This document shows positions 27,997 to 56,022 of a stretch of DNA of 64,000 bases, in pieces; the stretch's first letter is position 1; the number at the start of each line of letters is the position of its first letter. Both the position numbers and the translations under genes were made by a program. The notes beneath the pieces are model-generated. The model had not been told where the DNA came from, ran no database searches, and saw only the letters and a list, made by a program, of their open reading frames with translations. Source of the DNA: Microbacterium maritypicum (GTDB lineage: Bacteria; Actinomycetota; Actinomycetes; Actinomycetales; Microbacteriaceae); NCBI RefSeq assembly GCF_008868125.1, contig NZ_WAAQ01000003.1:357539-421538 (forward strand). The letters are read 5' to 3'.

Positions 27997-28013
27997 GTAC
28001 CCCTACAGGGTAT
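27997..28013. promoter_or_regulatory. CsoR-type operator 1
   Basis: GTACCCCTACAGGGTAT fits ATACCC-N5-GGGTAT with one mismatch and sits inside a longer perfect palindrome, ACCCTGTA (27992-27999) / TACAGGGT (28004-28011). It lies between the AAA operon (minus) and csoR-copZ-copA (plus), so it can control both. A TATGGT -10-like word (28011-28016) overlaps it. Confidence 0.8.
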
Positions 28014-31005: not shown

Positions 31006-31030
31006 CCATCGCTCGAGAAGGAGACACACC

Positions 31031-36215: not shown

Positions 36216-36603
36216 AGTCCCTCACTGTACCAATCCGACCTTTGCGTCTCCCGGATCTCGCCCGGCCGCAGGCCTTCCACGCCTTCGCCGACAGAGCAGC
36301 CACATCGCGTCCACCGGCACGTCGTTCTCGATTATCGGCGAACGACGTCCGTCTCCTGAGCGGAAGGATCAGTGCCCTCGGGGTGCCGTGGTGTCGGTCA
36401 AGGCGGGCAGCAGGATCGCCGTGACGCCGTCGGGGTCGAGTCTGCCGGTGCGGACTTCTTCGGCGGCGCCGTTGAGGACGGCACGGGTCGCTGAACTCCG
36501 CCGCGATCGTCTCGGCTGCGTCAGGTTCGCCCCACCGGGCACGTGCACCCGTCGGCACCCGAGGCGGCGCCGATTGAAAGAATACCTATAGGGGGTATAA
36601 GGT
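36216..36603. other. gene-poor spacer with decayed coding sequence
   Basis: No intact gene is seen in these 388 bases. Minus-strand fragments read like a degraded protein tail (a stretch with VLNGAAEEVRTGRLDPDG around 36410-36490), interrupted by frameshifts. The last 22 bases hold CsoR-type operator 2. Confidence 0.5.
36582..36598. promoter_or_regulatory. CsoR-type operator 2
   Basis: ATACCTATAGGGGGTAT fits ATACCC-N5-GGGTAT with one mismatch and has the same 17-base length as the other two sites. It lies 5 bases before the assigned GTG of the fused multicopper oxidase, or 41 before a TTG alternative, and overlaps TATAGG/GTATAA -10-like words. Confidence 0.75.
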
Positions 36604-38553
36604 GTGGGGGAGTCGTGTGCGAGGGAGAGGCGGGCGAGGTTGATTCAACCGATCGACTATTTCCTGGTCGCCTGGTTCGTGCTGGTCGCGATCAGCACGA
36701 TCTGGGTCGGGGTGGACCAGTTCCGTCACAACCCGGAGCCGGCGGTGATGAAGTGGGGCTTCATCCTGGTCACCCTCTACCTGGGGCCGATCGGGGCGCT
36801 GCTGTATGTGCTCGCGGACAAGGAGCCACGGCCGGGAGAGCATGAGGAGTTCACCCGGCCGCTGTGGAAGCAGGGCATCGGCTCGACCATCCACTGCGTC
36901 GCGGGCGATGCCACCGGCATCATCGTCGCCGCCGTCGTCGTCGCGTCGCTGGGCCTGCCGATGTGGCTGGATCTGATCATCGAGTACGCCGCCGGGTTCG
37001 CGTTCGGGTTGTTCGTGTTCCAGGCCCTGTTCATGAAGAACATGATGGGCGGCAGCTACTGGCAGAACGTGCGCCGCTCGTTCCTGCCCGAGTTCATCAG
37101 CATGAACTTGATGATGGCGGGCATGGCGCCGGTGATGTCGCTGCTGATGATGGGCCGCGACATGCGGGCCATGCTGCCCACCGAGTTGCTGTTCTGGGCG
37201 GTGATGAGTTTCGGGATCGCGGTCGGGTTCGTGCTCGCTTACCCCGTGAACGTGTGGATGGTGAAGAAGGGCCTCAAGCACGGTCTGATGACCGTCCGCC
37301 CCCAGCCCGCCACCCACCCCCAGGAGCATGACGCGCACGCGCAGCACAGCCCGCGGCCGGAGGCGCACGCCGGCCACGACCAGGCGGCGGGCGGTGCGTC
37401 GTCGCCGGGGTCGGGGCATGAGGCGCACCAGCCTTCTGGCGCCGGAGCGGTGACCGTGCCGCAGCTGACCGTGGTCGGCGCGTTCTCCGCGATCGCGCTC
37501 GTGGTCGGGATGGTCGCCCCCGCTAACGCCGTCAACATGACTCTCAGCGCGCACGACGTCGGTGGGCTGATCATGCCGCCCGGGATGATCATGACCCGTG
37601 ACACCCCCGCCGAGGCGATGCGGGACATGGCCGCCGTCGACCCGCGGGCCGCGACCGCCGCGTACGACGTGGACACCCGCGGTGATGAGGTGCTGGAACC
37701 TGCCCGCGTCGAGGACGGGGTGAGGGTGTTCGAGCTGACCGTGTCGCAGATCCGCTGGGAGATCCTCCCCGGCGTCACCGTCGACGCGTACGCGTACAAC
37801 GGGCAGATCCCGGGGCCTCGGCTGCAGGTCACCCAGGGCGACCGGATCCGCATCGACGTGACCAACGAGCTCGACGAGTCCACGACCGTGCACTGGCACG
37901 GCCTGGACGTGCCCAACGAGATGGACGGGCCCGCCGGGATCACCCAGGATCCCATCCAACCCGGCGACACCTACCGGTACGAGTACACGGTGAAGCAGTG
38001 GGGCACGTTCTTCTACCACTCCCACGATCACGCCGACCGGCAGCAGGCCCTCGGCCTGTACGGGGCGCTGATCATCGACCCCGCCGACCCTGGCCTGCAG
38101 CCGCCTGCCGATCGCGAGTACACGATCCAGCTGCAGGAGTGGCTGTCCCGGGAGGGGCTGACCTATCCGGCGATGCCGATGGAAGGGGGCATGCCGAACT
38201 ACTTCACCATCAACGGGAAGGCGTACCCGGCCACCGAGACCATCGACATGAAGGTGGGGGAGACCCTCCGGGTGCGGTTCATCGGCTCGAACACCAACGA
38301 CATCCACCCGATGCACATCCACGGCGGCCCGTTCACCGTCGTCGCCCGCGACGGGGCGGCCCTCACCACGGCGCAGCAGTTCCAGGCCGACACGATCAAC
38401 GTCGGGCCGGGACAACGCTACGACGTGCTCTGGAACGCGCTCGAGCCCGGCCAGTGGCTCATCCACTGCCACATCAACCACCACACCACCAACAACAACG
38501 TCGAAACCGACGGCGCTGGCGGCCTGACCATGATCATCAACGTCACCGAATAA
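36604..38553 (+). CDS. DUF4396-like membrane domain fused to a multicopper oxidase
   Basis: The 649-residue protein has an N-terminal four-to-six-helix membrane domain of DUF4396 type (about 15-235, with GIGSTIHCVAGDATG), a His/Gly-rich linker with HDAHAQH, one more helix, then a two-domain multicopper oxidase. Copper ligands are VHWHG (430-432), FFYHSH, HPMHIHG and HCHINHH (621-627). The residue five after the last His, where Met usually sits, is Asn632. It would oxidise Cu(I) at the outer membrane face. The start may be GTG 36604 or TTG 36640. Confidence 0.88.
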   Translation: MGESCARERRARLIQPIDYFLVAWFVLVAISTIWVGVDQFRHNPEPAVMKWGFILVTLYLGPIGALLYVLADKEPRPGEHEEFTRPLWKQGIGSTIHCVAGDATGIIVAAVVVASLGLPMWLDLIIEYAAGFAFGLFVFQALFMKNMMGGSYWQNVRRSFLPEFISMNLMMAGMAPVMSLLMMGRDMRAMLPTELLFWAVMSFGIAVGFVLAYPVNVWMVKKGLKHGLMTVRPQPATHPQEHDAHAQHSPRPEAHAGHDQAAGGASSPGSGHEAHQPSGAGAVTVPQLTVVGAFSAIALVVGMVAPANAVNMTLSAHDVGGLIMPPGMIMTRDTPAEAMRDMAAVDPRAATAAYDVDTRGDEVLEPARVEDGVRVFELTVSQIRWEILPGVTVDAYAYNGQIPGPRLQVTQGDRIRIDVTNELDESTTVHWHGLDVPNEMDGPAGITQDPIQPGDTYRYEYTVKQWGTFFYHSHDHADRQQALGLYGALIIDPADPGLQPPADREYTIQLQEWLSREGLTYPAMPMEGGMPNYFTINGKAYPATETIDMKVGETLRVRFIGSNTNDIHPMHIHGGPFTVVARDGAALTTAQQFQADTINVGPGQRYDVLWNALEPGQWLIHCHINHHTTNNNVETDGAGGLTMIINVTE

Positions 38554-40344: not shown

Positions 40345-41073
40345 TTAGAGGGGGAGCACGGTGGCTCCGATGAGGTTCTGGATGCTGGAGGTGAGGAGTG
40401 TCCAGGCTCCGCTGATCATCGCGATGCCGGTGGCGATCATGAGGACCCCGCCGGTGATGTTGATGGTGCGGATGTGGCGGCGCAGGAACGTGATGCTTCC
40501 GGTGGCCCAGTTCAGGCCGGCGGCGGCGGCGATGAAGGGCAACCCCAGGCCCAGGCAGTAGGTGACGGCGAGGAGGGCGCCGCGGGCGGGGTTGCCGGTG
40601 GTGAGGCTGAGGGCGGAGATCGCGGCGAGGGTGGGGCCCAGGCACGGGGTCCAGCCGAGCCCGAACGCGATGCCGAGCAGGGGAGCTCCGGCCAGCCCGC
40701 TGGGTGGGTGGATGGCGGGTTTCGCGGTGCGTTGGAAGAGCCGGAACACGCCGAGGAACACGAGCCCCATCAGCAGGACCACGATCCCGAGGATGCGGGT
40801 GAGGAGATCTTGCCAGCGGATGAGCCAGGCCCCCAGGGCGCCGAACGCGGCCCCGTAGCCGATGAACAGGACGGAGAAGCCGAGGGTGAACAGTCCGGTC
40901 CCGGCCAGCGCCCGCCACCGGGAGACCCCCGCGGTGGTGGTGGTGCCGGTGAGGTAGCCGAGGTAGCCGGGCACGAGGGGGAGCACGCAGGGGGAGGCGA
41001 AGGACACCAGCCCGGCGAGGAGGGCTAGGGGGAGGGCGGCCCAGATGCTGCCGGCGGTGATGATCTCCCCCAT
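40345..41073 (-). CDS. ccdA: cytochrome c biogenesis thiol transporter CcdA
   Basis: The 242-residue protein has six membrane helices and the two redox cysteines, in FASPCVLPLVPGYLGYL and GWTPCLGPTL. It moves reducing power from cytoplasmic thioredoxin to the outside, here to the ResA-like lipoprotein encoded just upstream (TGATG overlap). The set serves heme attachment to cytochrome c, and could also keep outer copper-binding thiols reduced. Confidence 0.94.
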   Translation of the reverse strand: MGEIITAGSIWAALPLALLAGLVSFASPCVLPLVPGYLGYLTGTTTTAGVSRWRALAGTGLFTLGFSVLFIGYGAAFGALGAWLIRWQDLLTRILGIVVLLMGLVFLGVFRLFQRTAKPAIHPPSGLAGAPLLGIAFGLGWTPCLGPTLAAISALSLTTGNPARGALLAVTYCLGLGLPFIAAAAGLNWATGSITFLRRHIRTINITGGVLMIATGIAMISGAWTLLTSSIQNLIGATVLPL

Positions 41074-41702
41074 CAGGGGCTCGTCTCGGCGAGGACGGTG
41101 TCGATGAGGGCGGCGAGGGTGGTGCGGGTAGGCAGTTGCCCGATGATGCGGGCGGCCATCCGGCCGGTGCGGTCCAGGACGATTGTGGTGGGCACGGCGC
41201 CGGGGGCGGCTTTCCCGGCGAACGCGGCTTGCACCGTGCCGGTGGTGGCGTCCAGGATCGACGGGTAGGTGATGCCGAACTGGTTCTCGAACGCGGCGGC
41301 GGTGTCGGCGCTGTCGCGCACGTTGACGCCGATGAACACGACACCGTCGGGCTGGTAGGTCTGGGCGAGGGCTTCCAGGTCGGGCGCTTCGGCACGGCAG
41401 GGCGGGCAGGCGGCGTACCAGAAGTTCACCACAACGACCGAACCCGCCCACGCGGTGGAATCCGCCTGCTCCCCGGTGTCGGTGGTGCCGGTGAAGGTGA
41501 CCGGGTCGTCGCGCTGGTCGGCGGGGATCTCCCGCACGGTCTCGTCCGCGGACAGATACCCCGGGGACGGGGAGGAGGACAACAGGCCGGGCGTCTGGGC
41601 GGTGCACCCGGCCAGAAGCAGGACGAGCGCGCCGAACACGGCGACCGCGGCGGCGGTGACGGCGCGGCGGGGTGGGCGTGTCAGGGTGGTGGGGGTGCGC
41701 AT
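41073..41702 (-). CDS. resA: ResA/TlpA-like thioredoxin lipoprotein
   Basis: The 209-residue protein has a lipobox LLLAGC (Cys33) and a thioredoxin fold with CPPC (99-102) and the cis-Pro in AVPTTIV. It reduces apocytochrome c cysteines outside the membrane and receives electrons from CcdA. It is one of several lipoproteins in the island that would need the island's Lgt and Lnt. Confidence 0.92.
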   Translation of the reverse strand: MRTPTTLTRPPRRAVTAAAVAVFGALVLLLAGCTAQTPGLLSSSPSPGYLSADETVREIPADQRDDPVTFTGTTDTGEQADSTAWAGSVVVVNFWYAACPPCRAEAPDLEALAQTYQPDGVVFIGVNVRDSADTAAAFENQFGITYPSILDATTGTVQAAFAGKAAPGAVPTTIVLDRTGRMAARIIGQLPTRTTLAALIDTVLAETSP

Positions 41703-42024: not shown

Positions 42025-43023
42025 TCACAGTCCGGAGTAGGAGTGCAGGCCGGTGAAGAAGACGTTGACGACGCCGAAGTTGAACAGCACGGCGGCGAAG
42101 CCGACGATGCACAGCCAGGCGGCGCGGGTGCCGGCCCAGCCGCGGGTGGCGGTGGCGTGCAGGTATCCGGCGTAGAGCACCCAGATGATGAACGTCCACA
42201 CCTCTTTCACGTCCCACCCCCAGAACCTGCCCCAGGCGCGGCCGGCCCAGATCGCCCCGGCGATCAGGGTGAAGGTCCACAGGATGAACCCGACGATCGT
42301 CAGCCGGTATGCGAGTCGGTCCAGATCCTCCGGCCCGGGCAGACTGTCCCGCAGCCGGGTGAGCCGGGAGGGGAGGCTGCGGCGGCGGGTGGTGAGCAGG
42401 TAGGTGAGGGAGACGAGGAACGCGAGCCCGAAGAACGCGGTCGCCAGCAGCGCGACCAGCACGTGGATGACCAGCCACCCGGATTGCAGGGCGGGCATCA
42501 GGGGGACGACGGGGACGTAGAAGCTGACCGTCGCGACGCCGAGCAGCAGCACGGTCAGCCCGAGCACGGCGCTGCCCAGGTACGCCAGCCGCACCCGCAG
42601 CGACACGGCCAGGAAGGTGGCGATGATCAGGGCGGTGCCGGTGAGGGAGAACTCGAACATGTTCGCCCACGGCACCCGGTCCGCGGCGACCCCGCGCAGC
42701 ACCACCCCGGCAAGATGGAACACCCAGCCCAGCACGGTCAACACGAACCCGACCCGCGCCGCCTTCCCCGCCCCCCGTCCGCCCCCCGGGGCAGCGGCGG
42801 CACCGGGTGCGGTGTCGGGGGCGGGGGCGGTGGGTGTGCCTGCCAGGTCCGGGTCGGTGGTGCTGGTGGCGCCGGCGGTGACCGGCACCCGGACGGTGAC
42901 CGGGACGGCAGGGGTGCTGGCGCGGCGGGCGAGGTGAAGGGTGTAGGCGACGAATGCGGCGGCGTAGATCGCGATCGCCGAGTACACCAGCAGCAGGGAC
43001 AGGGCGTCAAGGAACGGGGTCAT
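42025..43023 (-). CDS. ccsB: cytochrome c biogenesis heme-handling protein CcsA/CcsB type
   Basis: The 332-residue product has about eight helices and the heme-binding WGWDVKEVWTFIIW segment with flanking conserved His (LHATATRGWAG). With ResB it moves heme and ligates it to cytochrome c. The ATG follows GAGGAGG and overlaps resB by 17 bases. A Pro/Ala-rich loop (60-105) is an insertion. Confidence 0.92.
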   Translation of the reverse strand: MTPFLDALSLLLVYSAIAIYAAAFVAYTLHLARRASTPAVPVTVRVPVTAGATSTTDPDLAGTPTAPAPDTAPGAAAAPGGGRGAGKAARVGFVLTVLGWVFHLAGVVLRGVAADRVPWANMFEFSLTGTALIIATFLAVSLRVRLAYLGSAVLGLTVLLLGVATVSFYVPVVPLMPALQSGWLVIHVLVALLATAFFGLAFLVSLTYLLTTRRRSLPSRLTRLRDSLPGPEDLDRLAYRLTIVGFILWTFTLIAGAIWAGRAWGRFWGWDVKEVWTFIIWVLYAGYLHATATRGWAGTRAAWLCIVGFAAVLFNFGVVNVFFTGLHSYSGL

Positions 43024-44653
43024 CAGAGCCTCCTCGAAGGGGTGCGGGGGAAGGGGTGAGGCGGGTGGCGAGGGTGTCGACGGTGGGTTGCAGGCGGGGG
43101 TCGTCGCCGCGGGCGAGCCCGGCGACCTCAAGCACCGTGCCGCCGTCCCGGCCGGTGGTTGCGCGGACCCAAAGGCGGCGGCGGGGCACGAACAGGGACA
43201 GGGCCAACCCGGCCATCGCGACGACCGCGGCGATCAGAGTGGGGGTTTGGGTGGGGTCGGCGGCGATCTCCAGCGACGCGAATCGGGGGATCGGGCCGAG
43301 CTCGATCGTGCCCAGCTCGTCCGGCAGCGGAACCGGGGTGCCGGGGACCAACTGCAGGGCGGGGGTGGGGGTGCCCCGCCCGGCGATCTGGGTGAGGGTG
43401 CTGGTGTCCAGTGCGTACACCGACACCGGGACCCCGGTGTTCAGGCCCAGGTCGCCGACGTACACGTTGAAGGTGACGACCGGGTCCAGCAGGTCCGGGT
43501 AGCTGGACGCGAACGCCCCAGAGGCGGTGGTCGCGCGGGTGGGGTACAGCATCCCGACCAGGCCGACCTGCTCGGCCAGCCCGTCGGGAACCTTCACGAT
43601 GCCCAAGCTGGTCAAATTCGCGTCCTGCGGCAGGAACGGGACCGTGTCACGGAACACGATCTTCCCGGCCGGGTTTCGGACGGTGAGGGTGGGGGCGTAC
43701 CCGTTGCCGAGCAGATAGATGTCGGTGCCAGCCACCGGCAGCGGCTCGTTGACCCGGATGCTGGAGGCCTGCCGGGTGCCGCCAGTGGTGGTCGTGACCT
43801 GCGCGTCGAACGTCTTCGGCATGCCGAGCGCGTTGACGTTGTCCAGGACGTAGTCGACGCGGAACCGGTCCAGGGTGAGGGAGAACGCCGGGATCTGCGT
43901 GTCAGTGATGAACCGGCCGGCGGTGAACGAGTCGTACGCGATCCGGGTGGACGCGAACGTCTGCCCCTCCACCAGCACCCGCTGCCCGGTGAACCGGAAC
44001 CCGCCGCCGACGCCGACCACGACCAGCACCGCCAGCAGCGCCACGTGGAACAGCAGGTTCCCGGTCTCCCGCAGGTAGCCGCGCTCGGCTGCGACCGAGT
44101 CCCGTCCGTCGTCGCCGCGGACCCGGCGGGTGCGGTACCGCTGCCGACGCAGCGCCTTCTCGGCCGCGTCCAAGACCGCACCGGGGGGCGTGTCGGGGAG
44201 GACGCGGCGGGTGTGGGCGGGCAGGCGGGACAGGTTGCGGGGGGTGGCCGGGGGCGGGGCGAGCAGCGCGGTCAGGTGGTGGCGGATGCGGGGGATGACG
44301 CAGCCGATCAGCGACGCGAACAACAGCAGGTAGATCGCGGAGAACCACACCGACCCGAACACGTCGTGCAGCTGCAGCAGGTCCACCGCCCACATCCAGC
44401 CCGGGTTGGTCTTGTCGAACTGGATCACCCCGTTCGGGTCGGAGGAGCGTTGCGGGATCAACGACCCGGGGATCGCGGCCACCGCGAGCAGCAGCAACAA
44501 CACCAGGGCGGTGCGCATGCTGGTCAGCTGCCGCCACGCCCACCGCGCCCACCCCGACACGCTCAGGCGCGGATTCGTGCGCTCCTCCACCGGCCGGTCG
44601 ACGTGATCGGCGGGCAGCTGCGGGGCCTGCTCACTGCGGATCGACACGCGCAT
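43007..44653 (-). CDS. resB: cytochrome c biogenesis protein ResB
   Basis: The 548-residue protein has three N-terminal helices (about 45-65, 95-115, 200-220), a large outer domain and a final helix (about 465-485), the ResB/Ccs1 plan. It forms the heme lyase complex with CcsB. The start overlaps lgt by 23 bases and the 3' end overlaps ccsB, so it is tightly coupled. Confidence 0.93.
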   Translation of the reverse strand: MRVSIRSEQAPQLPADHVDRPVEERTNPRLSVSGWARWAWRQLTSMRTALVLLLLLAVAAIPGSLIPQRSSDPNGVIQFDKTNPGWMWAVDLLQLHDVFGSVWFSAIYLLLFASLIGCVIPRIRHHLTALLAPPPATPRNLSRLPAHTRRVLPDTPPGAVLDAAEKALRRQRYRTRRVRGDDGRDSVAAERGYLRETGNLLFHVALLAVLVVVGVGGGFRFTGQRVLVEGQTFASTRIAYDSFTAGRFITDTQIPAFSLTLDRFRVDYVLDNVNALGMPKTFDAQVTTTTGGTRQASSIRVNEPLPVAGTDIYLLGNGYAPTLTVRNPAGKIVFRDTVPFLPQDANLTSLGIVKVPDGLAEQVGLVGMLYPTRATTASGAFASSYPDLLDPVVTFNVYVGDLGLNTGVPVSVYALDTSTLTQIAGRGTPTPALQLVPGTPVPLPDELGTIELGPIPRFASLEIAADPTQTPTLIAAVVAMAGLALSLFVPRRRLWVRATTGRDGGTVLEVAGLARGDDPRLQPTVDTLATRLTPSPAPLRGGSDDPVP

Positions 44654-45521
44654 CCCCCCTCCCCCGGACGGGTGCGCGGCGGCGGGCGCGCCAGGAGGCG
44701 TGGGCGAGCAGCCCGACCCCCAGTACGGCGGCCACCAGGGCGGTGAGCACGTTCGCTTTCAGCCCGCCGGCGAGCAGCTCGGTGGGATCCAGCCGGATGG
44801 ACTCCAGCACCGCCCGCCCCGCCCCGTACCACAGCAGGTACACGCCCAGACTCCGCCCGGCGCCCAGCGTGATCCGGCCGTGCCGGCGGCGGTGCTGCTC
44901 GAGCAGCACGATCACGGCGGCGCCGGCCAGGTTCCACAGCAGCTCGTACAGGAACAGCGGATGAAACAGGGTCCCCGCCGGGGTCCCCGGCGGGATCGCG
45001 GGGGCTGAGGGGTCGATCTGCAGCCCCCACGGTAAGGTGGTGGGCGGGCCGAACAGCTCCTGGTTGAAGTAGTTCCCCAGCCGTCCCACCGCCTGGGCGA
45101 CCAGCATCCCCGGCGCGAGCGCGTCCAGGAACAGCAGCACCGGGATCCCGGCGCGACGGGTGCCGATCACAATCCCGACCAGCCCGCCCAGGATCGCACC
45201 GAAGATTGCGATCCCGCCTTCCCAGATGTAGAGCACCCGCCACAGGTCCGCGCCAGGGAAGAAGTAGTCGCCGGGATGGGTGAGCACATGGTAGATCCGG
45301 GCGCCGAGGATCCCGAACGGCACCGCCCACATCGCCACATCCACCACGACCCCGGCCGGGTGCCCGACCGCCCGCAGCCGACGGCCGGTGATCAGCACCG
45401 CCAGCACGATCCCGGCCAGGATCGCCAGCGCGTAGAACCGGATCTGGAACGGACCGACCTGAACGAAGCTGATCCCCGGGCTCGGGATCAGCGCCGGAGC
45501 CACAATGAGGAGTGCGTCCAT
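44631..45521 (-). CDS. lgt: prolipoprotein diacylglyceryl transferase Lgt
   Basis: The 296-residue protein has seven membrane helices and the Lgt signature GRLGNYFNQELFG. It adds the diacylglyceryl group to the lipobox Cys. It is a second copy candidate, since the chromosome normally carries one near trpC or similar genes. The ATG forms a TGATG overlap with the M23 peptidase stop. Confidence 0.93.
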   Translation of the reverse strand: MDALLIVAPALIPSPGISFVQVGPFQIRFYALAILAGIVLAVLITGRRLRAVGHPAGVVVDVAMWAVPFGILGARIYHVLTHPGDYFFPGADLWRVLYIWEGGIAIFGAILGGLVGIVIGTRRAGIPVLLFLDALAPGMLVAQAVGRLGNYFNQELFGPPTTLPWGLQIDPSAPAIPPGTPAGTLFHPLFLYELLWNLAGAAVIVLLEQHRRRHGRITLGAGRSLGVYLLWYGAGRAVLESIRLDPTELLAGGLKANVLTALVAAVLGVGLLAHASWRARRRAPVRGRGDARVDPQ

Positions 45522-46363
45522 CAGGGCCTCACCCTCGCCGGAAGCCACGCCAGCGGGTCCACCGCTTCGCCTCCGGTGCGGATCTCGAAGTGCAGGTGTG
45601 CGCCGAAGCTGCGTCCACTGTCCCCGACCCGGCCGACCATCTGCCCCACCCGCACGGTCTGTCCCGGGGTCAGGGCGAGGGACCCTTCCCGTATGTGCGC
45701 GTACGCGCTTTCCACGACCTGCCCGTCGATCTCGTGCCGGATCACCACGTACACCCCGTACGCGCCGCCCTGCTCCGTCGCGGTGGTGACCACCCCGTCG
45801 GCGATCGCCTGGATCGGGGTGCCGATCCCGGGGGTCATGTCCAGTCCGGCATGGAAATTTGAGCAGGACGGGCATGGCGGGGTGCGGTACCCGAACGTGC
45901 TGCTGATCGGCACTCCCACGGTGAACGGCCACTGCACCGCCGATGCCGGGTCGTTGGTGAACGTGTCCGCGGTGTGCGCGTACGACTCGGTCCCGACGGG
46001 GGCGGTCACCGCCACCGTGTAGTCCCCGCGCACCATCACCGTCCCGGTGACGGTGTCGGGGGTGGTGAACGACTGGGCGCGCACCGGGGTGCGGGTCGCC
46101 TCGACGGCGAACACCGGCTCCGGCGTCAACGGGATCAGCAACGGCAGTCCGGCGATCGACGCGACCGGGAGCATCACCGCGCCGGCGAGCATCCGGGATC
46201 GGGTGAGCGTGCGGCGCGGCGCGTGTCGAGGTGTCCGGGCGGCACGGGTGGGCCGACGGCGTCGATCGCGTCGCGTCTGGACGGGTGGGGAAGACAGGGC
46301 GGCTCTCGCCGCACGGCGCGTTCCGGTACCGGGAGTCGGGGTGGAGGGGGCGGGTTCGGGCAT
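45521..46363 (-). CDS. M23/LytM-type metallopeptidase, secreted
   Basis: The 280-residue protein has a long basic N-terminus with a signal-anchor (about 55-85) and a C-terminal LytM domain with HAGLD, HIREGSL and AHLHFE zinc ligands. It would cut or bind peptidoglycan cross-bridges. The ATG follows AGGAAAG. It heads the minus operon to lgt, resB, ccsB, resA and ccdA, with the DUF6153-like gene 223 bases upstream. Confidence 0.88.
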   Translation of the reverse strand: MPEPAPSTPTPGTGTRRAARAALSSPPVQTRRDRRRRPTRAARTPRHAPRRTLTRSRMLAGAVMLPVASIAGLPLLIPLTPEPVFAVEATRTPVRAQSFTTPDTVTGTVMVRGDYTVAVTAPVGTESYAHTADTFTNDPASAVQWPFTVGVPISSTFGYRTPPCPSCSNFHAGLDMTPGIGTPIQAIADGVVTTATEQGGAYGVYVVIRHEIDGQVVESAYAHIREGSLALTPGQTVRVGQMVGRVGDSGRSFGAHLHFEIRTGGEAVDPLAWLPARVRP

Positions 46364-46586
46364 ACAAGACTTTCCTGGATGAGGGGGACGATGAAGGTGC
46401 GCACGGTCGCCGTCACACGGTCCAACCGGGAGCCGCGGCCCGGAGTGCACGGCGAGAATCCGGGATCGGATCACCCATGGCGCTGCCGCAGACGGGTCGC
46501 GCTCGCCTGCGGGCCGCACATCGTGGACCGTCGGCGACATCACGCGCCGGCGGCGGCTCAGGCGGCGGGCGCGGGCGGGGTGCTGA
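46364..46586. other. spacer without clear gene
   Basis: Nothing is recognised in these 223 bases between the DUF6153-like protein B and the M23 peptidase. Short ORFs are chance or antisense. A separate promoter for the biogenesis operon may lie here. Confidence 0.4.
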
Positions 46587-47051
46587 TCAGGTGCGGCTGA
46601 TCGACAGCACGATCAGGGAGGGCCGCAGAAGAGGCGACCCGGACGTGAACGAGCTCGACCTGCCGGGGAGGGATCGCAGCCACGCCAGCAGCGACATCCA
46701 CCCGTCCCGGGCCGGGAGCACCAGGATGAGCAGGGTCAGCAACGCGAGCAGACACGTCACGGCAGCGAAAGCATGAGACGTCCCGCAGACCGTCTCATCG
46801 CACGAGGGCGTCACCACCCCGCTGACCAGGACATCAGCGGCGGCATCGGGGGCCGCAACGACTGCGGAGGCGGACACGACAGTGCCCGCCTGGTCCTCTT
46901 CCAGACTCAGCGAATGCATCGCAAGCAGCCCCGCGATGATCGCGGTCACCGCGGCCAGGTAGAACCACAGGGCACGCCGGGACCCGAGTGCCCGCCGTCG
47001 CGCCACCACCTGGTTCACCGTCGACGCCCCTTCCTCGATCACGCCCAGCAT
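46587..47051 (-). CDS. DUF6153-like small membrane protein B
   Basis: The ATG at 47051 gives 154 residues: a transmembrane segment with LLAMHSL (about 28-47), an outer region with two Cys (TPSCDETVCGTSHAF), a second helix (about 88-108) and the tail RPSLIVLSISRT. It is divergent from protein C across CsoR-type operator 3 and could head the operon that continues to the M23/lgt/ccs genes. Metal handling is inferred from the context. Confidence 0.7.
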   Translation of the reverse strand: MLGVIEEGASTVNQVVARRRALGSRRALWFYLAAVTAIIAGLLAMHSLSLEEDQAGTVVSASAVVAAPDAAADVLVSGVVTPSCDETVCGTSHAFAAVTCLLALLTLLILVLPARDGWMSLLAWLRSLPGRSSSFTSGSPLLRPSLIVLSISRT

Positions 47052-47080
47052 ACCCCGGGCGGGTAGCCATCCCCGAAGCG

Positions 47081-47110
47081 ATACCCATCCTGGATACCCC
47101 GGATGGGTAT
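47081..47110. promoter_or_regulatory. CsoR-type operator 3 (long palindrome)
   Basis: ATACCCATCC (47081-47090) and GGATGGGTAT (47101-47110) form a perfect 10-bp inverted repeat with a 10-base spacer. Within it, ATACCCCGGATGGGTAT (47094-47110) is an exact match to ATACCC-N5-GGGTAT, and the left part (47081-47097) is a weaker second copy. It separates the divergent DUF6153-like genes and can serve both long operons. Confidence 0.82.
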
Positions 47111-47206: not shown

Positions 47207-47677
47207 GTGAACGTGATTCGCTCGCACGCGCGTCTGACCCCCGGGGTGCGACGGCTCCTGCTGGCCGCTCCGATCGCCCTGGCGATCATCACCGGGCTGC
47301 TGTCCATGCACATCCTGACCGGTTCCCACCAGCCCGCCCTGGCATCAGAGACCAGCGCGATGAGCACGCACAGCCAGGTCGGCTCCGCACCAGCCGCCGC
47401 CGACGATACGCCGATGACCGCAGCTGCGGCGGAGGGCGCTGGAGGGCATTGCCAGGACGGGTGCGGCAGCCCTGCGGGGATGCCGGATCACTCGATGCTG
47501 ATGATGGTGTGCGTGCTGGCGCTGCTGGCCGCGGTGATCGTCCTGCTCGCCCCGACGTCCCGTGCCCTTCTCACATACGCCGTAGCCCGCTCGCGCTCCC
47601 ATACCCGGACTCTGCTGGTCGGATTGCCGCATCCCCGCCCGCCTTCACTGCTTGTCCTGTCCATCAGTCGCACCTGA
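47207..47677 (+). CDS. DUF6153-like small membrane protein C
   Basis: The 156-residue protein starts at GTG after GGGAAGGAGG. It has a transmembrane segment with GLLSMHIL (about 20-38), an outer region with GHCQDGCGSPAG and DHSMLMMVC, a second helix (about 97-115) and the tail PPSLLVLSISRT. Met, His and Cys residues fit Cu(I) binding. It heads the plus operon with DUF305, the F510_1955-like protein, phosphoketolase, the CPD ATPase and the second oxidase. Confidence 0.72.
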   Translation: MNVIRSHARLTPGVRRLLLAAPIALAIITGLLSMHILTGSHQPALASETSAMSTHSQVGSAPAAADDTPMTAAAAEGAGGHCQDGCGSPAGMPDHSMLMMVCVLALLAAVIVLLAPTSRALLTYAVARSRSHTRTLLVGLPHPRPPSLLVLSISRT

Positions 47678-47777: not shown

Positions 47778-48392
47778 ATGCGTTTTCGTACTCTCACGCT
47801 GACCGCCGGCGCCCTGGCCACCGTGCTCGTGCTCGCCGGCTGCGCCCCCACCGACGGCACCATGCCCGGCATGGACCACGGACCCGGGGGGATGACCAGC
47901 ACCGCCCCCTCCCAGTCCGCCGCCGCGTTCAACGCCGCGGACGAGATGTTCGTGACCATGATGATCCCGCACCACCAGCAGGCCATCGAGATGGCCGATC
48001 AGATCCTCGCGAAAGACGGCATCGACGAGCGAGTCGTCTCCCTCGCCGAGCAGATCAAGGCCGCACAGGACCCGGAGATCCAGACCATGAAGGGCTGGCT
48101 TCAGGAGTGGGGCGTCCCGTACGACGACTCCATGTCCGGGATGGACGGCATGGACATGGGCGGCGGGATGATGTCGGAGGACGACATGGCCGCTCTGGAT
48201 GCCGCGACCGGGGTCGAGGCGACCCGCCTGTTCCTGAACGGCATGATCGCTCACCACCAGGGCGCCGTGACGATGGCGCAGTCGGTGCTCACCGACGGAC
48301 AGAACCCGGACGTGGCCGCCCTCGCGCAGCAGATCATCGACGGGCAGACCGCCGAGATCACCACGATGCAGGACATCCTCGCCACCCTCTGA
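47778..48392 (+). CDS. DUF305 copper-island lipoprotein
   Basis: The 204-residue lipoprotein (LVLAGC, Cys22) has two halves of ferritin-like helical DUF305 type with MIPHHQQAIEMA and MIAHHQGAVTMA, plus a Met/His/Gly-rich linker (MPGMDHGPGGM; MSGMDGMDMGGGMM). DUF305 proteins are frequent in copper operons and the HH-Q and Met clusters suit Cu binding. It is 100 bases after protein C. Confidence 0.9.
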   Translation: MRFRTLTLTAGALATVLVLAGCAPTDGTMPGMDHGPGGMTSTAPSQSAAAFNAADEMFVTMMIPHHQQAIEMADQILAKDGIDERVVSLAEQIKAAQDPEIQTMKGWLQEWGVPYDDSMSGMDGMDMGGGMMSEDDMAALDAATGVEATRLFLNGMIAHHQGAVTMAQSVLTDGQNPDVAALAQQIIDGQTAEITTMQDILATL

Positions 48393-48509
48393 CCCGGTAC
48401 CCCTCGGACGGGACCCGCGCTCCCGATGCCGGTCCCGTCCGAGGCCCCACCCTCGACCCCTGTGCGGTCACCGGTATCCGGCGTACCCGCACGGAAAGGA
48501 CCTCCGTTC

Positions 48510-49370
48510 ATGATCTCTCCCACCACCCGCAGACTGGCGATCACGGCCACCGTCACCGTCGCGCTGCTGCTCACGGGCTGCAGCACCACCCCTGCGGAGC
48601 CCGATGCCCCCGCGAGCACCGCGGCCGGGTTCGGGCATGTGCACGGCATCGTCGACGCCGGTGACAGCACCGTGCTGCTGGGCACCCACACCGGCCTGTA
48701 CACGCTGGGCGAGGACGGCACCGTCACCGGCCCGGTCGGTGGCATCGACCTGGACGCGATGGGACTGACCGCTACCGGTGACACCCTCTACGCGTCCGGG
48801 CACCCCGGCCCGTCCACCCCGGCGGAGCTCGGCGCCCCCAACCTCGGCATCATCCGCAGCCTCGACGCCGGCGCCTCGTGGGAACCGGTCGCGTTCACCG
48901 GGGAAGAGGACTTCCACGTCCTCACCGTCACCGGCGACGGCACCCTGTACGGGATCGGATCCTCCCGCCCGCTGCTGCGCACCAGCAGCGACGGCGGGCA
49001 GAGTTGGGCGGACGGTGCCGAGCTGCCCGCCGTCGACCTGGCCGCCGCGACCGACGGCACCCTGTACGCCGCCACCCAGGACGGGCTGCAGCACAGCACC
49101 GACGGTGGCGCCACCTTCACCCCGGCGCCGGACGCGCCAGTGCTGTACCTGGTGGAGACCGACCCAACCGGTGGGGTGGTCGGAGTGGACACCGACGGGA
49201 CGTTGCGACGCCTAGTCGGCACCGGCTGGGAGAACGTCGGCACCACCACGGGAACCGTCCAAGCCCTCGGGGTCACCGGGGACGGTGCGATCGTCCTGGT
49301 CGATGACCGCGGCGTGGTCTGGATCCGCGACACCACCGCCACCGTTCTCATCCCGGCGGCAACACCATGA
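48510..49370 (+). CDS. F510_1955-like beta-propeller lipoprotein
   Basis: The 286-residue lipoprotein (LLLTGC, Cys24) continues into BNR/sialidase-like repeats ([19 protein letters not shown] and related Asp-box units), with HVHGI near the start. This is the family annotated F510_1955 glycosylhydrolase, often seen in copper clusters; glycosidase activity is not shown. The ATG follows GGAAAGGA. Confidence 0.82.
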
Positions 49371-49428: not shown

Positions 49429-51882
49429 ATGACCCCCACACCGGCACCCCCCGCGTGGGCGCACCGCACCACTGATGCCACCGCCGAGCAGTTGGCGGCG
49501 GTGGATGCGTGGTGGCGGGCGGCGAACTATCTGAGCATCGGCCAGATCTACCTGCAGGGTAACCCGCTGCTGCGCCACCGCCTCAGCCGGGACGACATCA
49601 AGCCGCGGCTGCTGGGCCATTGGGGCACCACCCCGGGCCTGAACTTCCTCTACGCCCACCTGAACCGCGCCATCCGCGACCGCGACCTGAACACCCTGTA
49701 CGTGACCGGGCCCGGGCACGGCGGACCCGGCATGGTCGCCAACGCCTACCTCGACGGCACCTACACCGAACGCTACCCGGGCATCGACCGCACCGAAGAG
49801 GGGCTGCGGGCGCTGTTCCGGCAGTTCTCCTTCCCGGGCGGGATCCCCTCGCACGCGTCCCCGGAAACGCCCGGGTCGATCAACGAGGGCGGGGAGCTGG
49901 GCTACTCCCTCGTGCACGCCTACGGGGCCGCGTTCGACAACCCCGACCTGCTGGTCGCCTGCGTGATCGGTGACGGGGAGGCGGAGACCGGGCCGCTGGC
50001 GACCGCGTGGCACGGCAACAAGTTCCTCAACCCCGCCCATGACGGGGTGGTGCTGCCGATCCTGCATCTGAACGGGTACAAGATCGCCAACCCGACCGTG
50101 CTGTCCCGCATCCCCGAGGAAGAGCTGGTCGCGCTGCTGCGCGGCTACGGCCATCACCCCCACGTCGTCACGGTCGGCTTCGATGGCGAGACCCCGCAGG
50201 AGTCCCACGCGACGTTCGCGGCGGTCCTGGATGCGGTGCTGGATGAGATCGCGGACATCAAGGCCGCCGCGGCGGCCGGGACGCTGGAGGGGCGGCCGGC
50301 GTGGCCGGCGATCGTGCTGCGCAGCCCGAAGGGGTGGACCTGCCCGAAGATCATCGACGGTCTGCCGGTGGAGGGCACCTGGCGGGCACACCAGGTGCCG
50401 CTCGCCGAGGTCCGCGACAATCCCGAGCACCTGCGGATCCTCGAGGACTGGCTGGCGTCCTACCGCCCGCACGAGCTGTTCGACGTGACCGGCGCCCCCC
50501 GCCCGGCCACGGTCGCGATCGCCCCGGACGGGGATCGGCGGATGAGCGCGAACCCGGCCGGCAACGGCGGACAACTCACCGTCCCGCTGCGGCTCCCGGA
50601 CTTCCACAAGCCCGCGCAGCCGGTCGACCCGGCCGAGCGGGGTGCGGGAACCGGGGAAGCGACCCGCGTGCTGGGCGAGTGGCTGGCGGGGGTGATCCGG
50701 GACAACCCGGACAACTTCCGCATCTTCGGCCCGGACGAGACCGCCTCCAACCGGCTCGCCCCACCCGTCTACCAGGCCACCGGCAAGCAGTGGAACGCGG
50801 CCGTGGAGCCCGTCGACGAGCACCTGGCCCCGACTGGGCGGGTGATGGAGGTGCTCAGCGAGCACCAGTGCCAGGGCTGGCTCGAGGGCTACGTCCTTAC
50901 CGGCCGGCATGGGCTGTTCAACTGCTACGAGGCGTTCACCCACATCGTCGACTCGATGTTCAACCAGCACGCCAAATGGCTCGAAGCGGCCCGGGAGGTG
51001 TCGTGGCGGGACCCGATCCCGAGCTTCAACTACCTGCTCTCCAGCCACGTCTGGCGGCAGGACCACAACGGGTTCTCTCACCAGGACCCCGGGTTCATCG
51101 ACCTCGCCCTGAACAAGAGCCCCGACATCGTCCGCGTCTACCTGCCGTTCGACGCGAACACGCTGCTGTCCACCTACGACCACTGCCTGCGCTCGGCCGG
51201 GTACATCAACGTCGTCGTCGCCGGGAAGCAGCCCGCCCCGCAGTGGCTGACGATGGACGAGGCGATCGAGCACTGCACCCGCGGGCTCGGGATCCTGCCG
51301 TGGGCGGGCACCGAAACCGAAGGCACCGAGCCGGATGTGGTGCTCGCCGCCGCCGGCGACGTCCCCACCCTCGAGACCCTCGCCGCGGCGGCGCTGCTGC
51401 GCGAGCACATCCCCGACCTGAGAGTGCGGGTGGTGAACGTGGTCGACCTGACCCGGCTGCAATCCGAGGACCAGCACCCGCACGGTCTCCCGGACCGGGA
51501 GTTCGATGCGATCTTCACTCCCGACAAGCCGGTGATCTTCGCCTACCACGGCTACCCGTGGCTGATCCACCGACTCACCTACAAGCGCGCCGGGCACCAG
51601 AACCTGCACGTGCACGGCTTCCAGGAGCGCGGCACCACCACGACCCCGTTCGACATGGTCATGCTCAACGACCTCGACCGGTACCGGCTCGCGATCGACG
51701 TCCTCGACCACGTCCCGGGCCTCGCCGCCCGCCACGCCGGCCTGCGGCAGGAGCTGCAGGACGCCCGCCTGCACGCCCGCGCCCACACCCGCGAGCACGG
51801 CACCGACATCCCCGCCGTCGCCGACTGGCAATGGCCCCACCCCGACACCACCGACCCCACCCTCGGGAAGGAACCGAAATGA
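49429..51882 (+). CDS. xfp: xylulose-5-phosphate/fructose-6-phosphate phosphoketolase
   Basis: The 817-residue thiamine-diphosphate enzyme splits xylulose 5-phosphate (or fructose 6-phosphate) with phosphate into acetyl phosphate and a shorter sugar phosphate. It has GPGHGGPG, the cofactor motif [14 protein letters not shown], and [11 protein letters not shown]. The length is normal. It follows the F510_1955-like gene and its stop overlaps the next ATPase start (ATGA). Its presence in a copper operon is odd: the pathway avoids Fe-S-dependent steps that copper damages, which is an inference. Confidence 0.95.
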
Positions 51883-54500
51883 GCGACACCAGAACCGTGA
51901 CCCTGCAGGTCAGCGGCATGATCCGCGCGACCTCCAAGAACGTCACCGAAGCCCACCTGAGCCGACAACCCGGAGTGATCGCCGTGGACGCGAACCCGGT
52001 CTCACAGACCGCGACCGTCACCTACGACCCCGAGACCACCTCGGTCGCCCACCTCCAGCAATGGGTCATCGACTGCGGGTATCACTGCGCCGGCCAGTCC
52101 GTCCCCGACCATATCTGCGACCCCGTGCACGACCCGCACGACGAGGGTGCGCACGACCACAGCGCCCACCACGGCCCCGCAGCTGAGGGCGCACAAGAAC
52201 CGCACGCGAGTCACGACGCGCACGAGGGCCACACGGATGCCACGGGTCACGCCAGCCACGCGGGCCATAAGGGTCCTGCGGGCTATCACGACGACCCCGT
52301 CCACGACCACGCCGCTGGCCACGACCACACGCACGCCCCGTCGGCGACGGCGGATGACGGTGAGCATGCCGGTCACCACGTCGAGCACGCCGGTCACACC
52401 GCGGCCGCGGGTGGGCACGATCATGGTGCAGCGTCGGGTCACAGTGCGCAGGAGATGATGGGCCACGGTGGGCATCACGGCGGGATGTCGATGGACGCGA
52501 TGATCCGCGACATGCGCAACCGGTTCCTGGTCGCGCTGATCCTGTCGATCCCGATCACCCTGTGGTCTCCGATCGGGCGGGAGGTGATCGGATTCGAGGT
52601 GCCGGCACCGTTCGGGCTGCGCGATGACGTGTTCATGCTGATCCTGTCGCTGCCGGTGATCTTCTACTCGGCGTGGATCTTCTTCGACGGCGCCTACCGG
52701 GCGCTGCGCGCGAAGACCCTCGACATGATGGTGCTCGTCGCAGTCGGTGTCGGCGCCGGCTGGCTGTACTCCCTCGCGGTCACCCTCACCGGCGGCGGTG
52801 AAGTGTTCTACGAAGCCGCCACGGTGCTTGCCACCTTCGTGCTGCTGGGGCATTGGGTGGAGATGCGCGCCCGCGGCGGCGCGAACGACGCCATCCGCAC
52901 CCTCCTGGAGCTCGCACCCTCGCAGGCGGTCGTGATCCGTGACGGGCAGGAGGTCGAGATCCCCACCAGCGAGGTCGTCCCGGGGGATCTGATGCTGGTG
53001 CGGCCGGGGGCGAAGATCCCCACCGACGGTGTCGTGGAATCCGGAGAGTCCGAGGTGGACGAGTCGATGGTCACCGGCGAGTCCATGCCGGTGGACAAAG
53101 CGCCCGGGTCGGAGGTGATCGGAGCGACCGTGAACACCGTCGGCACCCTCCGCGTCACAGCCACCAAAGTCGGCTCGGACACGGCGTTGGCGCAGATCGT
53201 GAAGCTCGTGCAGGAGGCGCAGAACTCCAAAGCCCCCGGGCAGCGCCTCGCCGACCGGGCAGCGTTCTGGCTCGTCCTGGTCGCCCTGATCGGCGGCACC
53301 CTCACCTTCCTGGTGTGGCTGCTCGCCGGCGCTGCAATCCCGATGGCGATCCTGTTCGCTATCACCGTCGTCGTCATCACCTGCCCCGACGCGCTCGGCC
53401 TCGCCACCCCGACGGCGATCATGGTCGGCACCGGGCTCGGCGCGAAACGGGGCGTGTTGTTCAAGAACGCCTCCGGGATCGAAACCGCCGCCCACATCGA
53501 CACGGTCGTGTTCGACAAGACCGGCACCCTCACCAAGGGGGAGCCGGAGGTCACCGACTACATCCCCGTCGGCGGCGACGAGCTCGAGACTCTCTCCCTC
53601 GCGGTCGCGTTGGAGCGGGAATCCGAGCATCCTCTGGCGAAAGCGATCGTGAATTACGCCGACGCCCGCGACATCCCCCGTCGCACCGCGACCGCGTTCC
53701 GAAACGTCACCGGGCAGGGCGCGATCGCCACCGTCGACGGTCGACAGGTCGTCCTCGGCAACCCGCGCCTTCTCACCGGGGAGGGGATCGACATCAGCGG
53801 GGTGCAGGCCGCTCAGCAGGACCTGGCTGGGTCCGGCCGCACCGCGATCCTGTTCGCCGTGGACGGGCAAGTCGCCGGGATCATCGGTCTCGCCGACGCA
53901 CCCCGGGACACCGCAAAGACCGCGATCGACGCTCTCCACGAGCAGGGCGTCGAGGTCGCAATGCTCACCGGGGACAACAAGCCCACCGCCGACCGGATCG
54001 CCGCTCTCCTCGGCATCGACACCGTGATCGCGGATGTGCTCCCCGAGGACAAGTCCGCGAAGGTCGCCGAGCTGCAGAAGACGGGCAAGAAGGTCGCGAT
54101 GGTCGGCGACGGCGTCAACGACGCCCCCGCCCTCGCCCAGGCCGACCTCGGCATCGCGATCGGCGCCGGCACCGACGTCGCCATCGAGACCGCCGACGTG
54201 GTCCTGATGCGCTCGGACCCGCTCGATGTTGCGATCGCACTCAAGATCGGCAAGGGCACACTGCGAAAGATGCGGCAGAACCTGGGCTGGGCCATCGGAT
54301 ACAACGCCGCCGCCCTCCCCATCGCCGCTGGCGTGTTCTATCCGGCGTTCGGGATCATGCTGTCCCCGGAGATCGCCGCCCTGTCGATGTCCGGTTCCTC
54401 CGTGATCGTCGCCGTCAACGCCCTCCTCCTCAAGCGGCTCCGCCTGCCCGCCCAGGCGCCCGCTGCGACGACCATGCAGAAGGAGCCCGAACATGCCTGA
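51879..54500 (+). CDS. P1B-type ATPase with CPD membrane motif and altered metal domain
   Basis: The 873-residue pump has an N-terminal HMA-like fold in which GMTCxxC is replaced by GMIRATSKN (about 13-21), with Cys66, Cys70 and Cys80 further on, and then a 100-residue His/Asp/Gly-rich linker. The core is complete: TGES, membrane motif [10 protein letters not shown] (Cys502-Pro-Asp504), DKTGTLT (Asp546), SEHPLAK, TGDN and [13 protein letters not shown] is neither CPC (Cu(I)) nor CPH (CopB type). Copper remains the likely substrate from context. The ORF running in from 50301 is only a chance upstream extension. Confidence 0.9.
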
Positions 54501-56022
54501 CCGTCCGCTCTCTCCCACACCGTCCTCCCCGATGCTGCTGACCCGACGAGGTGTGCTCGGACTCGGACTGGGCGCCGTCGCGGCAGCCGTGCTCGCCTCC
54601 TGCACCCCCGCGCCGCAATGGGTGACACCCACCGGCGCAGCGGTGTCCGGCACGGAGAAGAACCGCGGCGGCACCGGCCGAGTCACCACCGTCGACCTCA
54701 CCGCCGCCCCCACCACGCTCGACCTGGCCGGTACCGCCGCCGCCACCTGGGCGTTCGGAGGTATCCCGGCCCCGGTAATCCGGCTCACCGCAGGCGACAC
54801 GCTGAAAGCGACCGTCCGCAACCAGCTCGACGCGGACACCTCCGTGCACTGGCACGGACTCGCCCTCCGCAACGACATGGATGGGGTCCCTCCGGTCACC
54901 CAAGCCCCCATCGCCCCGGGCGGACAGTTCGCATACGAGTTCGTCACCCCGCATCCGGGCACCTACTGGTTCCACCCCCACGTCGGCCCGCAACTGGACC
55001 ACGGCCTCTACGGTGCGCTCATCATCGACGACCCGGACGAGAAGGTGACGTGGGACGACGAATGGGTGCTGATCCTCGACGACTGGCTCGACGGCGTCAC
55101 CGCCACCCCGGACCAGGTCCTCACCGACCTCTCGAAGGGCATGGGAGACATGGGCGGGATGGGCGACATGTTCATGCGGATGGGGAACCTGCTGATGGGT
55201 GCCACCTCCGACCTGCTCGGCGGCGACGCCGGCGACGTCTACTACCCGCACTACCTCATCAACGGCAAACCCAAAGCCGACCCCGCCCAATTCACCGGCA
55301 CTCCTGGTGCCCGGGTGCGGATCCGTGTCATCAACGCCGGTAGCGACACCGCGTTCCGGTTCGCGATCGGCGGCCACACCCTGACGATCACCCACACCGA
55401 CGGGTTCCCGGTGGATCCTGTCGAGGTCGACAGTGTCCTGATCGGGATGGGCGAACGCTACGACCTGCAGGTCACCCTGGACGATGGGGTGTTCCCTGTC
55501 GTCGCCGACGCGGAAGGCAAGCAGGATCGCGCGTTCGCGCTCGTTCGCACCGCCGCTGGCACGGCTCCGGCCAGCGACGTCCCCGTCGCCGAGCTCGGCA
55601 CCGGCAGGGTTGGCACCGCTGCCGGGCTGAGCGCGACCGCCTCCGTCACCCTGCACCAGGCATCCCCCGACCGGGTCGTGCACCTCGCGCTGACCGGGGG
55701 GATGGAGGCGTACGACTGGGGGATCAATGGGCGCCGGTTCGACATGAACGACCCGTTGCGGGACGCGCACGCGATCAGTAGGGGGGAGCGGGTGCAGTTG
55801 CGGATCCGCAATGACACCGAGATGTGGCATCCGTTCCACCTGCACGGCCACACCTACCAGCACGCGAACGGCGGCCCCCGGAAGGACACCTCCATCATCC
55901 TCCCGGGCCAGACCCTGACAGTCGACTTCGACGCCGACAACCCCGGCCAGTGGGTCGCGCACTGCCACAACATCTACCACGCCGAGACCGGCATGACCAC
56001 GGTGCTCGGATACCAGTCATGA
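54493..56022 (+). CDS. Tat-exported multicopper oxidase lipoprotein
   Basis: The 509-residue protein has a twin-arginine signal ([10 protein letters not shown], 17-26) ending in a lipobox VLASC (Cys37). Three cupredoxin domains follow, with copper ligands [19 protein letters not shown] and [12 protein letters not shown] including the axial Met. The Met-rich loop ([15 protein letters not shown]) resembles CueO-type cuprous oxidases. It overlaps the CPD ATPase by 8 bases and closes the plus operon. Confidence 0.93.

Follow-up and report, generated by a model that had tools for sequence, protein, structure and literature searches.

Candidate type-2 CsoR operators in and beyond a copper island of Microbacterium maritypicum, with a possible metabolic arm

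The palindromes at the copper genes of a stretch of Microbacterium maritypicum DNA are best explained as type-2 operators of the repressor CsoR, serving a dispersed regulon with a putative metabolic arm. To this reading as a whole we give a probability of roughly 0.8. Operators of this kind are already known; the uncommon part is a regulon that reaches a metabolic arm. The window is the whole stretch of 64,000 nucleotides that was analysed, C3:357539-421538 of the 3.67-Mb genome (G000), and positions given without a contig name are positions in the window.

We scanned the genome with the pattern RTACCYN5GGGTAT and used the reversed pattern as control. At zero mismatches the pattern occurred at six places (nine strand matches) and the control at none. 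All six exact 17-mers were at copper genes, three in the island and three elsewhere:

C1:128053, exact 17-mer with a tandem copy 30 bp off, upstream of copZ and a CPC-type copA
C1:1304083, exact 17-mer upstream of a CPH-type ATPase
C2:466508, exact 17-mer upstream of a second csoR with copZ, a CPH-type ATPase, DUF6153 and DUF305

No set of equal matches at unrelated genes was found. An earlier note on this DNA had proposed that the palindromes tie the island together, which describes them too narrowly: the same operators lie at three further copper loci, and a copy of the island in another genome (G050) is without site 2. Because these operators also occur at copper loci outside the island, the predicted sites are the mark of a dispersed copper regulon rather than of one island.

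Operators, promoters and repressors

The earlier note had reported three 17-mers with a common 17-bp plan, beginning at 27997, 36582 and 47094, and they were found exactly there. Together with two further copies and a promoter-like element they are:

27997-28013, + strand, CsoR-type operator 1 (predicted), GTACCCCTACAGGGTAT, between an AAA-domain gene (- strand) and csoR (+ strand)
36574-36601, + strand, promoter-like TTGAAA-N16-TATAAG seen by eye, its spacer filled by operator 2
36582-36598, + strand, CsoR-type operator 2 (predicted), ATACCTATAGGGGGTAT, upstream of the DUF4396-multicopper oxidase gene
47050-47066, - strand, CsoR-type operator 3C (predicted), ATACCCCGGGCGGGTAG, beside a leftward TATGCT
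47081-47097, no strand assigned, operator 3B (predicted), a weaker copy that overlaps 3A and has one mismatch
47094-47110, + strand, CsoR-type operator 3A (predicted), ATACCCCGGATGGGTAT, of the rightward operon

Two of the three sites had been placed between divergent operons, which is true for sites 1 and 3; site 2 lies upstream of the DUF4396-multicopper oxidase fusion. The suggested pairing of operators at site 3 was also borne out. Site 3A lies inside a perfect 10-bp inverted repeat (ATACCCATCC, 47081-47090, and GGATGGGTAT, 47101-47110, with a spacer of 10 bp), which creates the two overlapping 17-mers 3B and 3A. The extra copy 3C, which is exact for the 15-bp core TACCYN5RGGTA, had been overlooked. 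The divergent layout at site 3 includes at least one operator for each direction, and control of the ccs/lgt operon, raised before as a possibility, gains support because 3C adjoins the leftward TATGCT box.

The ATG of csoR is 25 bp from site 1 and that of the AAA-domain gene 18 bp; GGGTATGGTAGA, downstream of the site, holds a -10-like TANNNT box (TATGGT, by eye). The 3' arm of 3A leads into a -10-like TATGCT, and 3C does likewise in the leftward direction (both by eye). Scans for sigma-70 promoters listed none of the -10 boxes seen by eye, which is a weak test in a GC-rich genome.

The first gene behind operator 1 encodes the regulator itself:

28039-28323, + strand, csoR, 94 aa, PF02583 at 100 bits, with Y35, C36, H61 and C65

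This protein has the PF02583 domain of the CsoR (DUF156) family with Cys-His-Cys Cu(I) ligands; the roles of these residues as ligands and their M. tuberculosis numbering are presumed here. Its nearest PDB entry is the CsoR of Streptomyces lividans (4adz, 108 bits). An identity as RicR was rejected, the score with NCBIfam NF052430 (136.9 bits) being below the curated cut-off of 175.

The three sites and 47050-47066 all have a TAC/GTA inverted repeat with 9-bp spacing that encloses two G/C tracts, and it is very probable, judging from these features, that the palindromes are type-2 CsoR operators. Such operators are described as a TAC-N9-GTA inverted repeat around G/C tracts, bound by two apo-CsoR tetramers per site, with binding abolished by Cu(I) (PMC3902906). 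The operator of the S. lividans csoR, ATACCCCTGGTGGGTAT (PMC3902906, Table 1), matches the window pattern. As described there, the S. lividans regulon (csoR-4375, copZA1, copZA2) resembles ours in its type of operator with G/C tracts, in the sites before csoR and copZA and in its two CsoR genes (PMC3902906); its repressor, 4adz, is also the closest to ours in the PDB. In contrast, operators studied here lie ahead of multicopper oxidase, ccs/lgt and phosphoketolase runs as well, and three copies are clustered at site 3.

The presence of two csoR genes bears on which protein reads the sites. The earlier note had one repressor govern all of them, a claim that falls short because two CsoR paralogues exist: CsoR2 (C2:466235) has the same Cu(I) residues as the CsoR of the window and sits under its own perfect operator elsewhere in the genome. 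There are two more PF02583 paralogues, one without the second Cys (C1:843268) and one at C2:154204. It is conceivable, at clearly less than even odds, that CsoR2 or both proteins read the sites and that the island csoR is neither the only nor the main regulator. The residues and operator of CsoR2 fit this, as does the precedent of S. lividans, which likewise has two CsoR genes (PMC3902906), but when the island moves from one genome to another, its own csoR goes along, under operator 1.

Genes behind the operators and a possible metabolic arm

The other genes of the island considered here, with one structural element, are:

25154-25696, - strand, truncated remnant (N-terminal half) of a type II GAPDH, complete copies of which occur in the copper operons of relatives
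28370-28729, + strand, copZ-like HMA chaperone (PF00403)
28726-31005, + strand, copA, P1B ATPase with CPC motif and an HMA domain with CxxC
30959-31309, + strand, His-rich YHS protein (PF04945); ORF start given, the true start may be later
36604-38553, + strand, DUF4396-multicopper oxidase fusion (PF14342, PF07732, PF07731, PF00394)
40345-41050, - strand, CcdA-like protein (DsbD_TM, PF02683), start approximate
41073-41702, - strand, TlpA/ResA-like thioredoxin (PF08534)
42025-43131, - strand, CcsA/CcsB-type cytochrome c assembly protein (PF01578)
43007-44653, - strand, ResB (PF05140)
44631-45467, - strand, lgt (PF01790), start approximate
45521-46543, - strand, M23 peptidase (PF01551)
46587-47018, - strand, DUF6153 gene, first of the leftward run (27.4 bits, cut-off 27.7), start placed from the Shine-Dalgarno sequence and domain limits
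47207-47677, + strand, DUF6153 gene, first of the rightward operon (PF19650)
47778-48392, + strand, DUF305 lipoprotein (PF03713)
48402-48444, + strand, perfect 14-bp hairpin without a T tract, between the DUF305 gene and the next lipoprotein gene
48510-49370, + strand, F510_1955-family lipoprotein (NF045728, 187.6 bits, cut-off 175), start inferred
49429-51882, + strand, phosphoketolase (XFP), island copy (PF09364/PF03894/PF09363; NF003619, 1365 bits)
51879-54500, + strand, P1B-type ATPase with TM6 motif CPD and an HMA-like domain without CxxC
54493-56022, + strand, multicopper oxidase

The small DUF6153 or DUF6153-like proteins encoded at 46587-47018, 47207-47677 and 35769-36215, and one at locus L245, have a common C-terminus, LSISRT; the protein at 35769-36215 has no Pfam match. 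The genome has two copies of lgt, the other at C1:1738840. Genes of lipoprotein maturation (lgt, lnt and two lspA) occur in or beside metal islands, at 44631-45467 and 32877-35099 in the window and at 638-1267 and 13611-14144 in L007.

By what is established for CsoR proteins, tetramers of apo-CsoR would repress from TAC-N9-GTA sites that flank or cover the -10 region, and Cu(I) at C36/H61/C65 would release CsoR. Operator 1 would thereby autoregulate csoR-copZ-copA and operator 2 would control the DUF4396-multicopper oxidase gene. The cluster 3A/3B/3C would control DUF6153-M23-lgt-resB-ccs-resA-ccdA to the left and DUF6153-DUF305-lipoprotein-phosphoketolase-CPD ATPase-oxidase to the right. The XFP is probably induced through site 3; we only infer its control by the operators, and upstream of the gene there is a strong hairpin. 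The XFP has the N-terminal, central and C-terminal domains of phosphoketolases, and its stop codon overlaps the start codon of the ATPase (ATGA). A second XFP in the genome (C1:1725167) is 73% identical to it, and the island XFP is therefore an extra copy.

Phosphoketolase skips the step of glyceraldehyde-3-phosphate dehydrogenase (GAPDH) and yields acetyl phosphate. With GAPDH blocked by Cu(I), the enzyme would give acetyl phosphate, and hence ATP, without that step. In relatives, such predicted operators stand ahead of runs that include a spare GAPDH of archaeal type and an enzyme for phosphorolytic sugar entry. We propose a copper-induced glycolytic backup because copper inhibits GAPDH: in Staphylococcus aureus, Cu(I) is reported to inhibit GapA (PMC6350627). 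The same report finds no gain in copper tolerance from over-expression of gapA, which calls for caution with the idea of replacement. Copper is also reported to inhibit the PRPP synthetase (ribose-phosphate pyrophosphokinase) of S. aureus (PMC10249872).

Locus L014 has the order csoR-copZ-copA-YHS-x-DUF6153-DUF305-lipoprotein-XFP-ATPase. One palindrome is at csoR (3550), and another, at 2898, precedes a short gene that runs leftward and looks DUF305-like by eye; in the region searched there was no operator before DUF6153. Compared with L014, the window has the DUF6153-XFP segment separated from csoR-copZ-copA and equipped with its own operator cluster. The operon of G012 is diverged (XFP 82%, lipoprotein 53%, DUF6153 41%), and ATACCGGTGGAGGGTAT, with one mismatch, lies upstream of its DUF6153-lipoprotein-XFP-ATPase-GH65-GAPDH II run. 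Both L014 and G012 also encode a type II GAPDH and a GH65 phosphorylase that has a HAD domain; in L014 an acetate kinase gene is near. A general link between XFP and copper was rejected: among the nearest 80 XFP loci, the set csoR/copZ/copA/DUF305 occurred only in L014 and L015, which are 99.87% identical to each other, and a few other XFP loci had only an ATPase or a weak csoR match.

The type II GAPDH of the relatives is closer to 1cf2 (248.6 bits), 2czc (242), 2yyy (237) and 1b7g (232), which we take to be archaeal GAPDHs, than to the E. coli-type GapA (1s7c, 23.5). It keeps a catalytic-type cysteine motif, SCNTT, and copper tolerance is therefore not implied. In 396 genomes of the order there were 25 matches at E <= 1e-3, of which 10 were strong (64-77% identity, the remnant of the window included) and 15 were weak and look like ordinary GAPDH. 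The nine other genomes with strong matches all had copper-type neighbours by tblastn (only DUF305 on a 5.6-kb contig in G128, only copZ in G114). An exact operator precedes the same-strand GAPDH run in six of these nine (G386, G237, G230, G181, G445, G394), runs being called from tblastn matches rather than full annotation and the site in G237 overlapping a weak copZ match. A looser palindrome precedes the run in G114, the CPD-XFP-GH65-GAPDH run of G342 has no operator, and the G128 contig has no upstream sequence. G230 has a further operator before a CPH ATPase, with XFP about 1 kb on. Type I GAPDH was co-present in nine of nine genomes with a complete type II enzyme (G012, G342, G386, G237, G128, G230, G181, G445, G394); none was found in the fragmented assembly of G114. 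A class-wide search of 394 genomes gave strong matches only in G342 and in the remnant. The type II enzyme is common in databases: of 8000 proteins scored, without regard to gene context, 6718 matched at E <= 1e-20.

Plasmids carry the same genes in more varied company. PLSDB had 35 records with type II GAPDH, and we inspected the surroundings in 21 (7 actinobacterial, 14 other). A P1B-ATPase, a multicopper oxidase or a metal regulator was in the stretch in 15 of the 21 and in none of the remaining six (L257, L261, L264, L270, L273, L274), which rules out a strict copper link of type II GAPDH in all bacteria. In four of the seven actinobacterial records (L255, L256, L259, L267) the GAPDH-II run lies behind a perfect operator, and in two of these four the run includes XFP and GH65. 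The perfect operator of L266 heads only an ATPase, and there is no operator in L263 and L265, an IS element lying about 1 kb upstream of XFP on the plasmid of L265. None of the 14 non-actinobacterial loci has a perfect operator; L262 has a site with one mismatch beside a csoR-like gene. XFP occurred in 216 plasmid records, and four XFP-centred actinobacterial stretches (L277-L280, L280 being on the plasmid of L266) had no operator. On plasmids of Paracoccus and Acidovorax (L260 and L257), a ribose-phosphate pyrophosphokinase gene lies near the type II GAPDH, and the neighbourhood includes a gene annotated as xylulose 5-phosphate 3-epimerase that is phosphoketolase-like in length.

Copper pumps have CPC or CPH in TM6. 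The ATPase that follows XFP in the island has CPD instead, yet it scores 602.9 against a cut-off of 397 with TIGR01511, the copper-translocating ATPase model. It may not move copper, given the CPD motif and an HMA-like domain without CxxC. CPD ATPases adjoin XFP, GH65 or GAPDH II in L014, G012, G342, G386, G237, G230, L255, L256 and L265, lie within 6 kb of GAPDH II in L266, and occur also in the stretches L268, L271, L272, L275, L277, L084 and L087. At other GAPDH-II loci the pumps are of the CPH or CPC type (L218, L220, L223, L259, L260, L262, L267, L269). The link to predicted operators suggests a role of the CPD ATPase in copper stress and is a hint, from regulation, at what CPD-type P1B-ATPases transport.

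A copper-induced bypass as the function of the metabolic arm is, on this evidence, possible but somewhat short of probable. We put forward more tentatively the wider idea that actinobacterial copper islands carry a CsoR-controlled spare glycolysis that would replace Cu(I)-poisoned enzymes, made of a phosphoketolase shunt, an archaeal-type GAPDH and phosphorolytic sugar entry, with the CPD P1B-ATPase as a copper-stress transporter. If this kit replaces poisoned enzymes, copper resistance would therefore be metabolic replacement too, beyond export and oxidation. In several families a phosphoketolase and a second GAPDH are found again behind copper operators, and resistance here may extend to replacing, through coupled transcription, the central metabolism that copper poisons. 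This would open the question of the cytosolic targets through which copper kills to genetics. Among the open-licence papers listed, no title or abstract opening reports a copper-coupled replacement of central metabolism, and no title relevant to a joining of phosphoketolase with CsoR or multicopper oxidase was found. Against a backup stand the hairpin, the cysteine motif of GAPDH II, the copies without copper context and the truncation of the GAPDH in the window.

The copper stress described in S. aureus is alike in that GAPDH and ribose-phosphate pyrophosphokinase are inhibited and central carbon metabolism is targeted (PMC6350627, PMC10249872). There the cell's own enzymes respond (PMC6350627), whereas here spare enzymes lie in copper islands behind CsoR-type operators. 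The copB-mco island of S. aureus, as described in PMC6191537, also brings mobile copper hypertolerance genes with a multicopper oxidase; the content of ours differs by the phosphoketolase and the CPD-type ATPase.

The metabolic genes could instead be a module for low oxygen or energy shortage that rides metal islands, copper control being a local actinobacterial add-on and the CPD ATPase serving another metal or condition. We consider this tenable without being probable. On proteobacterial plasmids, type II GAPDH has neighbours such as genes for ribose-phosphate pyrophosphokinase, arginine deiminase, enolase, pyruvate:ferredoxin oxidoreductase or acetate kinase, company that supports such a role. 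Some of these loci are without copper genes, and CPD ATPases occur there too. A low-oxygen locus of Burkholderia cenocepacia reportedly holds a phosphoketolase. That locus, activated by low oxygen, is a precedent in kind (PMC6127331), comparable to ours as an island reported to take part in metabolism, transport and electron transfer under stress; unlike the window it is oxygen-regulated. The word "phosphoketolase" is absent from the main text of PMC6127331. In Actinomycetota, however, the module lies behind CsoR-type palindromes in several families. Six other XFP loci of the genus (L166-L171) had no operator, which argues that the operator follows the copper setting and not XFP as such.

We think it unlikely that the CsoR operators govern only DUF6153 and DUF305, with the hairpin insulating a lipoprotein-XFP-ATPase-oxidase run that has its own promoter and a phosphoketolase that is a passenger of the island. 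Such insulation would fit the perfect 14-bp stem and the gaps of about 100 bp on both sides of DUF305. The hairpin is near-identical in G036, and L014 has a comparable stem of different sequence. Yet the hairpin has no T tract, the scan saw no sigma-70-type promoter (a weak test, as above), XFP and the ATPase overlap, and the ATPase-ligase-XFP-GH65-GAPDH run of plasmid L255 lies directly behind a perfect operator. The hairpin could be an attenuator.

Chance controls, related genomes and the spread of the island

From base composition alone, about 0.42 exact 17-mers are expected on each strand; a first-order Markov model with the window as its training sequence produced none over 20 Mb. The 15-bp core TACCYN5RGGTA was little enriched, with nine places in the genome (four in the window) vs five for its reversed control. 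Eight of the nine are at copper genes and the ninth, C2:459237, is inside an oxidoreductase-like ORF. Allowing up to one mismatch in the 17-mer gave 25 strand matches vs 6 in the control and added seven places off copper promoters, six of them inside ORFs according to mechanical ORF maps. We then counted matches in 28 genomes, our own included: the reversed control had none in any of them, and the pattern was matched in 25. Although the core alone is weakly enriched, an origin of the sites as chance GC-rich palindromes was rejected as extremely improbable from the reversed-pattern controls, the Markov model and the copper setting of every exact 17-mer.

One locus was inspected in each of the 25 matching genomes (own included), with a neighbourhood of 1.5 kb. 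Homologues of csoR, copZ or copper ATPases were within this distance in 22 of the 25 loci. The three loci left are L245, with DUF305 and a DUF6153-like end, L238, with a YHS protein (by eye), and L230, which had no relevant copper neighbour within 1.5 kb.

The arms of operator 1 are kept in G036 (ATACCCCTAGTGGGTAT) with a different spacer; the version in L014, ATACCCCTAGTAGGTAT, has one arm base changed and again a different spacer. Operator 3C is identical in G036, G050, G047, G063 and G096, and 3B is altered in G047. Conservation in the congeners G096, G063, G047, G080 and, largely, G050 was set aside as evidence: their island stretches are 94-100% identical, and such near-identical transfers are not independent.

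The island itself appears in several genomes. Of the 99 genomes of the genus searched (own included), five others have the DUF4396-oxidase at 99-100% identity. The same five congeners share long stretches of the window at 94-100%, with left limits at 16.3-28.9 kb and a right limit at or before 56,213. In G096 and G047, whose contigs run on, the match stops at 56,213; the contig of G063 itself ends at this point. The near-identical island of G050 is missing exactly 61 bp (36553-36613), operator 2 included. Next to the copper island lie genes for an SPC-type P1B ATPase and an ArsR-family regulator (22861-24810), and a similar SPC ATPase is encoded at 10913-13006 of L007.
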